A stretch of DNA of 64,000 nucleotides from Inquilinus sp. Marseille-Q2685 (GTDB taxonomy: Bacteria; Pseudomonadota; Alphaproteobacteria; DSM-16000; Inquilinaceae): positions 310,001 through 374,000 of the forward strand of contig NZ_CAKAKL010000001.1 of NCBI RefSeq assembly GCF_916619195.1, in the 5' to 3' direction. Shown here one piece after another: positions 8,541 to 42,207 of the stretch. The notes below the pieces were generated by a model. It searched no databases, had not been told where the DNA came from, and worked only from the letters and a program-made list of their open reading frames with translations. Each line of letters opens with the position of its first letter. Within the stretch, counting starts at the first letter, position 1. A program made the position numbers and the translations under genes.

Positions 8541-8626
8541 CGTCATGGCGAGCCCCGAAGGGGCGTGGCCATCCAGTGGTCCCGGCCCCTGGATCGCCAC
8601 GCCGGCTTCGCCGGCTCGCGATGACG
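8541..8626. repeat. REP-like palindromic intergenic repeat, copy 1
   Basis: An 86-bp element with inverted ends, CGTCATGGCGAGCC on the left and GGCTCGCGATGACG on the right (13 of 14 match when inverted). It lies between the FAH gene and the convergent enoyl-CoA hydratase gene. An interrupted second copy with the same ends and the shared core CCGGCCCCTGGAT lies at 40965-42117. It can fold into a long hairpin in RNA and may act as a bidirectional terminator. Confidence 0.75.
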
Positions 8627-40950: not shown

Positions 40951-40973
40951 TGAAATCCCTATACCGTCATTGC

Positions 40974-42034
40974 TGTGCATGTTCATTAATTCGTTGATCG
41001 ATGCCGGCGAGAAGGAGGCGGCATCGATGCGGGACAACAGCTACGACCGGACGATCGAGCGCAACTATCTGCAGAAGTGGCGCTTCCTGATCCCGGAATA
41101 CGAGGCGGTGAAGGCCGGGACGTCACAGACGTTCCGGCGGGTCGGCGAGTTCTACCGGCATCACGGCACCTGCTCGCAGACCTTCCGCAAGTATTACAAC
41201 CGCTATCTGCTCAGCGGCTCGGAGCAGGATCTGCTGCCGCAGCGGCGCGGACCGAAGTGGCGCGAGCGCCGCGACCCCGACGGCATCGAGGCCGAGATCC
41301 TGGCCTGCCGCCAGCGCGGCCTCAACCGCTACGAGATCCATGCCGTCTTGCGGGAGACGCGCCAGGATGTATCGTCCTTGCCGTCACCCTCCACCATCTA
41401 CCGCAGGCTCAAGCAGCATGGCCTGAACCGCAAGACCAAGGCCATGGTCGAGACCAAGCGCAGGATCATCAAGACCATGCTCGGCGAGATGGGCCATGTC
41501 GACCTGCACCAGCTGCCCCGCGACATGTTCCTGCAGCCGCCCGCCAAGCCGGCCTACCTCGTCTGCCTGATCGACGCCTGCTCCCGCCTGGCCTGGGCCG
41601 AGATCCTCGCCAGCAAGAAGGCCCTGCCGGTGATGTTCCGCACCCTGAAGATGATCAACACCCTCAACGCCAACTACGGCCTGCAGTTCAAGGACATCCT
41701 CACCGACAACGGCGCCGAGTTCGCCTCCCGGCAACACCCCGAAGACCACCCCTTCGAGGCCATGCTCCTCGAGCTCGGCATCAACCACCGCTACACCAGG
41801 CCCTACCGGCCCCAGACCAACGGCAAGGCCGAACGCTTCTGGCGCACCCTCAACGACGACCTGATCGACGGCGCCACCTTCGACCACCTCGAACACTTCT
41901 CCAACGAGCTGTTCGAATACCTCGTCTACTACAACGCCTTCAGGCCTCACCAAGCCCTCGATGGCCTTACCCCAAAGGCCTTCGCTCTCACCAAAACCCA
42001 ACCCAACCGATCAGCGAATTCCTGAACCTCTACA
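40974..42034 (+). mobile_element. IS481-like insertion sequence with terminal inverted repeats and 5-bp target duplication
   Basis: A 1061-bp element. The left end TGTGCATGTTCATTAATTCG and the inverted right end TGTAGAGGTTCAGGAATTCG match at 14 of 20 positions, and the match goes on through TGATCG. Both begin TGT, as in the IS481 family. ATTGC at 40969-40973 is repeated at 42035-42039 directly outside the ends, so the target duplication is intact. One transposase gene fills the element. The insertion looks recent because both ends and the duplication are undamaged. Confidence 0.88.
41027..42025 (+). CDS. IS481-family DDE transposase
   Basis: 332 residues. An N-terminal helix-turn-helix region (about 25-130) with SQTFRRVGEFYRHHG and YEIHAVL is followed by an rve catalytic core. 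DDE residues are visible as the Asp of MGHVDLHQL, the Asp of ILTDNGAEF and the Glu of TNGKAERFWRTL, then YYNAFRPHQALDGLTP, the hallmark C-terminus. ATG at 41027 has AAGGAGG upstream; an in-frame ATG at 40979 lies within the terminal repeat and is less likely. The gene is intact and ends inside the right terminal repeat. Confidence 0.9.
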   Translation: MRDNSYDRTIERNYLQKWRFLIPEYEAVKAGTSQTFRRVGEFYRHHGTCSQTFRKYYNRYLLSGSEQDLLPQRRGPKWRERRDPDGIEAEILACRQRGLNRYEIHAVLRETRQDVSSLPSPSTIYRRLKQHGLNRKTKAMVETKRRIIKTMLGEMGHVDLHQLPRDMFLQPPAKPAYLVCLIDACSRLAWAEILASKKALPVMFRTLKMINTLNANYGLQFKDILTDNGAEFASRQHPEDHPFEAMLLELGINHRYTRPYRPQTNGKAERFWRTLNDDLIDGATFDHLEHFSNELFEYLVYYNAFRPHQALDGLTPKAFALTKTQPNRSANS

Positions 42035-42207
42035 ATTGCGAGCGTAGCGAAGCAGTCCAGGGCCAGCGCGAACCGGCCCCTGGATTGCTTCGTCGGCTTC
42101 GCCTTCTCGCGATGACGGTGAAGGGGGACCGCGCCGCCAGGCACCCTTCCGCCGACCATGTCCGAAAACCGCGAGCGCGATCGCTCCGGACGTGACATGG
42201 TCGGGGT

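Follow-up and report, generated by a model that had tools for sequence, protein, structure and literature searches.

The 64,000-nucleotide stretch of Inquilinus sp. Marseille-Q2685 analyzed here (the window; contig NZ_CAKAKL010000001.1, positions 310,001 to 374,000) carries an intact insertion sequence (IS) of 1061 bp at positions 40974 to 42034, plus strand, which interrupts a repetitive extragenic palindrome (REP). With a probability of roughly 90%, this IS481-like element is a site-specific insertion sequence with a DDE-type transposase that targets the heads of CGTC-type REPs. The target, 5'-GTC-ATTGC-GAG-3', lies where the unpaired CGTC tag meets the first bases of the stem. The element has TGT...ACA ends, and its terminal inverted repeats (left, TGTGCATGTTCATTAATTCGTTGATCGA, 40974 to 41001, plus strand; right, 42007 to 42034, minus strand) are identical at 21 of 28 bp. 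Its only transposase frame (41027 to 42025, plus strand) encodes 332 amino acids with a DDE integrase core (rve, rve_3). The pentamer ATTGC is directly duplicated on both sides of the element (40969 to 40973 and 42035 to 42039, plus strand). The intact element, its ends, and the duplication had already been described in an earlier reading of the letters alone (the sequence-only reading), and all were confirmed.

Insertion is precise to the base. The genome holds three copies of the element, identical over their full length and all at one insertion point: two are located inside full palindromes, at CCGTC-ATTGC-GAG, and the third, which is reversed, lies in GTC-GTTGC-GAGGAGGCGAAGCC, the remnant of one REP arm. 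All three, the remnant included, are thus found at GTC-(A/G)TTGC-GAG. A genome scan for relatives gave 40 Bradyrhizobium loci, with the same flanks in nearly all of them. A search blind to the flanks, in which only the end of the element had to match and the 62 bases upstream of it were left free, was run on 266 Bradyrhizobium genomes and found matches in 32. All fetched loci together provided 111 distinct element ends, which are not all independent events, as some represent both ends of one insertion. Exactly GTCATTGC or CTCGCAAT adjoins 105 of these ends; the other six show one mismatch (four ends), two mismatches (one end), or unrelated sequence (one end). Forty-six distinct insertions could be followed on both sides, and 45 of them have an identical 5-bp duplication, 43 the exact 11-mer GTCATTGCGAG (GTC-ATTGC-GAG), and 40 an inner REP arm detected by an automated test; beyond these 40, the insertion at locus L177 lies in a palindrome with a different arm. 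The transposase gene points in the same direction as the motif in 24 cases and in the opposite direction in 22. None of the 46 two-sided insertions used the inner ATTGC/GCAAT of these palindromes. With all three genome copies and 110 of the 111 ends at one point within two mismatches, insertion is not random.

The target repeats have the features of CGTC-tagged REP families, i.e., a CGTC tag, a stem starting with AT, a CCA tail, and an arrangement in head-to-head dimers (PMC3733652), as summarized by CGTC-ATTGCGAG...GCAAT-CC(A). The genome contains 70 exact copies of the head CCGTCATTGCGAG and 107 of the shorter head GTCATTGCGAG, compared to 0 occurrences of either backward-read control. The expected inner arm follows 95 of the 107 shorter heads, and most of the 107 form opposed pairs about 75 bp apart, in keeping with high-copy-number repeats that are mostly head-to-head dimers; their intergenic position was checked at a few sites only. 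Further copies of the palindrome, whose absence would have spoken against the sequence-only reading, are therefore present by the dozen.

The same reading had suggested that the element may prefer REP hairpins as targets. The targeting of REPs was borne out by the insertion points, but the hairpin as a structure was not, and the 11-bp head sequence is favored instead. If the structure recognized by the transposase were the REP extruded from supercoiled DNA as a hairpin or cruciform, the precise insertion site would follow from it. We consider this unlikely, even though most targets are strong palindromes and the symmetry axis of the hairpin is the insertion site of some elements that target REPs (Tobes and Pareja, PMC1525189). 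Insertion takes place at the hairpin base rather than in the loop or at the axis, and REPs that differ widely in their arms and loops are hit at this same point. Insertions are also found in REPs that are halved or reduced to a remnant (L003, L127), with only half an arm present at L127. Moreover, the 11-mer is used in coding DNA without a palindrome: the insertion at L126 lies in a methyl-accepting chemotaxis-like coding sequence with the full 11-mer but no REP or palindrome, and the one-sided insertion at L129 lies in a response-regulator-like gene, again at the 11-mer without a palindrome (both genes named by eye). A count in 11 Bradyrhizobium genomes gave 2034 copies of the 11-mer versus 19 of a control, so that about 0.9% of the motif copies are expected to be chance copies; 1 to 2 of the 41 two-sided Bradyrhizobium insertions lie outside full REPs, which is at least as frequent as this expected value. 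The simplest reading of these sequences is that the 11-mer would suffice and that REPs are targeted since nearly all of its copies lie there. Most likely, then, the transposase reads a sequence of about 11 bp and not a hairpin.

Several points weigh against this interpretation. The insertions outside REPs are few, so the step from REP targeting to sequence rather than hairpin recognition rests on small numbers. The conservation of the REPs itself fixes the 11-mer, and the bases read by the protein are not fully separable from those conserved in the repeat. An AlphaFold2 model of the transposase (mean predicted local distance difference test value of 58.7 for the catalytic core; predicted template modeling score, 0.34) is of too low a quality for any contact to be read from it. 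Finally, the single unrelated end, at L055, adjoins the sequence CGACAGC, next to a REP-like sequence, possibly as the result of a rearrangement.

Two further alternatives are far less probable than hairpin recognition. According to the first, the element inserts at random or with weak specificity, and the survivors are the harmless insertions in intergenic REPs. This would fit the fact that REPs, themselves mainly intergenic (PMC3733652), hold most of the insertions, but selection can neither give single-base precision within a palindrome nor leave all other intergenic positions unused, and with 105 of 111 distinct ends exact this explanation was rejected. The second, that the REP flanks belong to the mobile unit and travel with it, agrees with the REP sequence beside nearly every copy, but was rejected as well, as the flanking arms vary between copies, the REP is empty in two sister genomes (see below), and the copy at L126 has no REP.

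For the preferred reading, direct recognition of the REP head, we propose the following course of events. Joining would take place at the two outer edges of ATTGC, on one strand 5 bp from the other, and would thereby generate the duplication. The outer bases of the target are symmetric, reading TC-N5-GA on either strand, as would fit a symmetric transposase complex for strand transfer, and it may be this symmetry that is read; it would explain the equal insertion in both orientations. As almost all copies of the motif are located in REPs, the element would spread mostly through spare intergenic DNA and rarely break genes, which amounts to a putative safe-harbor strategy. REPs would attract this element because they supply most copies of the sequence it recognizes. 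To our knowledge, DDE transposases are rarely so choosy in their target. If our reading is correct, an 11-bp target that is hit with single-base accuracy, in either orientation, and by deeply diverged relatives would offer a natural system in which to study sequence-specific integration by DDE transposases.

The target frame is kept in distant relatives from other Alphaproteobacteria. A relative with 53% identity is inserted at GTC-ATCAT-GAG and one with 44% identity at GTC-ATTCT-GAG, both with a perfect duplication, and the hosts of these two are rich in GTCATNNYGAG repeats (32 to 33 matches versus 0 to 1 in controls). A partial relative with 66% identity adjoins CGTCATTGC. A relative with 73% identity, which adjoins GTCATTGC at one end and GCAATGACG at the opposite end, is probably a recombinant. 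Across the relatives, the outer GTC and GAG are constant and the duplicated pentamer varies. This evidence consists of a single copy per distant genome; a search of the order to which the 53% relative's host belongs gave no further copy. It appears somewhat more probable than the opposite that an IS481-like clade keeps the GTC-N5-GAG frame at CGTC-REP heads down to 44% transposase identity across Alphaproteobacteria, with a pentamer that changes with the REP type of the host, suggesting that a DDE transposase and a repeat family have adapted to each other over the long term. No relatives of the transposase were found in plasmids (tblastn, E values up to 1e-30) or phages (1e-20), and in viral contigs a profile-guided scan found partial matches only, with 32 to 34% identity. 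The lack of plasmid and phage relatives at these thresholds would be consistent with an element that is tied to REPs and stays on the chromosome.

When the element and one copy of the duplication are taken out of the window, an 87-bp palindrome is rebuilt (40965 to 40973, the left part, joined to 42040 to 42117, the remainder; plus strand), as the sequence-only reading had stated. This palindrome folds considerably better than its dinucleotide shuffles (200 sequences; z score, -4.9). The window also contains an uninterrupted REP palindrome of the same kind at 8541 to 8626 (no strand assigned), with the heads GTCATGGCGAG and GTCATCGCGAG and a z score of -7.3 in the same comparison. The sequence-only reading's claim that the ends and the core of the two palindromes match holds for both ends but only partly for the core, with 68 of 92 aligned columns shared; judged from this alignment, the two are related but diverged and do not represent one sequence. 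At the orthologous intergenic place, two genomes of the same genus have the palindrome but lack the element, and the before/after reconstruction is therefore historically correct. In a third genome of the genus (G005, L119), the REP is absent from this place, i.e., the presence of the REP itself differs between close species. The neighbors of the site are a transporter substrate-binding-like gene and an Ada/AlkA-like gene, both named by eye from their translations.

An IS110-family element of 1655 bp (NF033542, 216.6 bits; cut-off, 140) occupies three other REPs of the genome (L146, L147, and L148 on contigs C1, C6, and C8), in each case in the inner arm and flanked by CTGGATTGCT and TTCG. The same palindrome thus serves two unrelated types of element, each at a point of its own. 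The IS110 family is RNA-guided, and the presence of both elements in one genome makes two unrelated mechanisms comparable on one target.

Two irregular cases were seen among the relatives. Genome G421 has two shortened copies of 969 bp (L131 and L177), one of them with unequal flanking pentamers; these may be internally deleted mobile forms. At L083 (G070), the two flanks of the element differ, one being ATTGC and the other GCAAT, which resembles the outcome of recombination between the two arms of a palindrome.

The best NCBIfam match of the transposase is NF033577 (IS481; E value, 6e-57), with 193 bits versus a curated cut-off of 224. Its relatives reach 197 to 211 bits and likewise remain under this cut-off; the IS3 profile follows far behind with 77 to 85 bits. 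Because all members tested score below the NCBI cut-off, the name "IS481-like" is a fair one. Traits of the IS481 family are nevertheless recognizable: a single DDE-type frame, with the candidate catalytic residues D159, D227, and E269 invariant in nine aligned proteins (predicted DDE triad), and TGT...ACA ends with short inverted repeats. Target duplications in the family comprise 2 to 15 bp, mostly 6 bp (PMC10045372); the 5-bp duplication found in 45 of 46 insertions lies inside this range but is not the commonest length.

CGTC REPs have been described as being without a dedicated transposase (PMC3733652). The repeats targeted here share their tag, stem start, tail, and dimeric arrangement, and the present element inserts into such REPs but shows no sign of mobilizing them. 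An IS481-family element of Pseudomonas fluorescens SBW25 has already been reported to insert in REPs (PMC11708052). It likewise has a DDE transposase, and its four resident copies and one new insertion share one REP position. However, it measures about 1.3 kb, has 49-bp inverted repeats, and belongs to another host with another REP collection; moreover, its new insertion lacked a target duplication, whereas a 5-bp duplication is nearly universal here. TnRErm46/ISRe46, also of the IS481 family (PMC6794481), resembles our element in its single-gene DDE transposase, its TGT ends, and its sequence-specific symmetric target, but uses the 4-bp core CTAG with a 6-bp NCTAGN repeat and has no link to REPs, compared to a target of about 11 bp and a 5-bp duplication in the present case. 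The REP-targeting elements compiled by Tobes and Pareja in 2006, namely, ISPsy8 (IS3), ISPpu9, ISPpu10, ISPa11, and ISRm19 (IS110), and ISRm22 (IS4) (PMC1525189), also use a fixed REP point for every copy, and ISRm19 and ISRm22 are alphaproteobacterial. Their transposases belong to other families, none to IS481; the IS110 members use RNA-guided recombination, unlike the present DDE element; and each was described from a single genome and not as a specificity kept across a class. A literature search for the literal string CATTGCGAG gave only unrelated titles among the 20 matches listed of 150. REP-targeting IS elements are hence already known, including one IS481-family case in Pseudomonas, and the new part appears to be a clade that keeps its specificity for CGTC-REP heads across the class.
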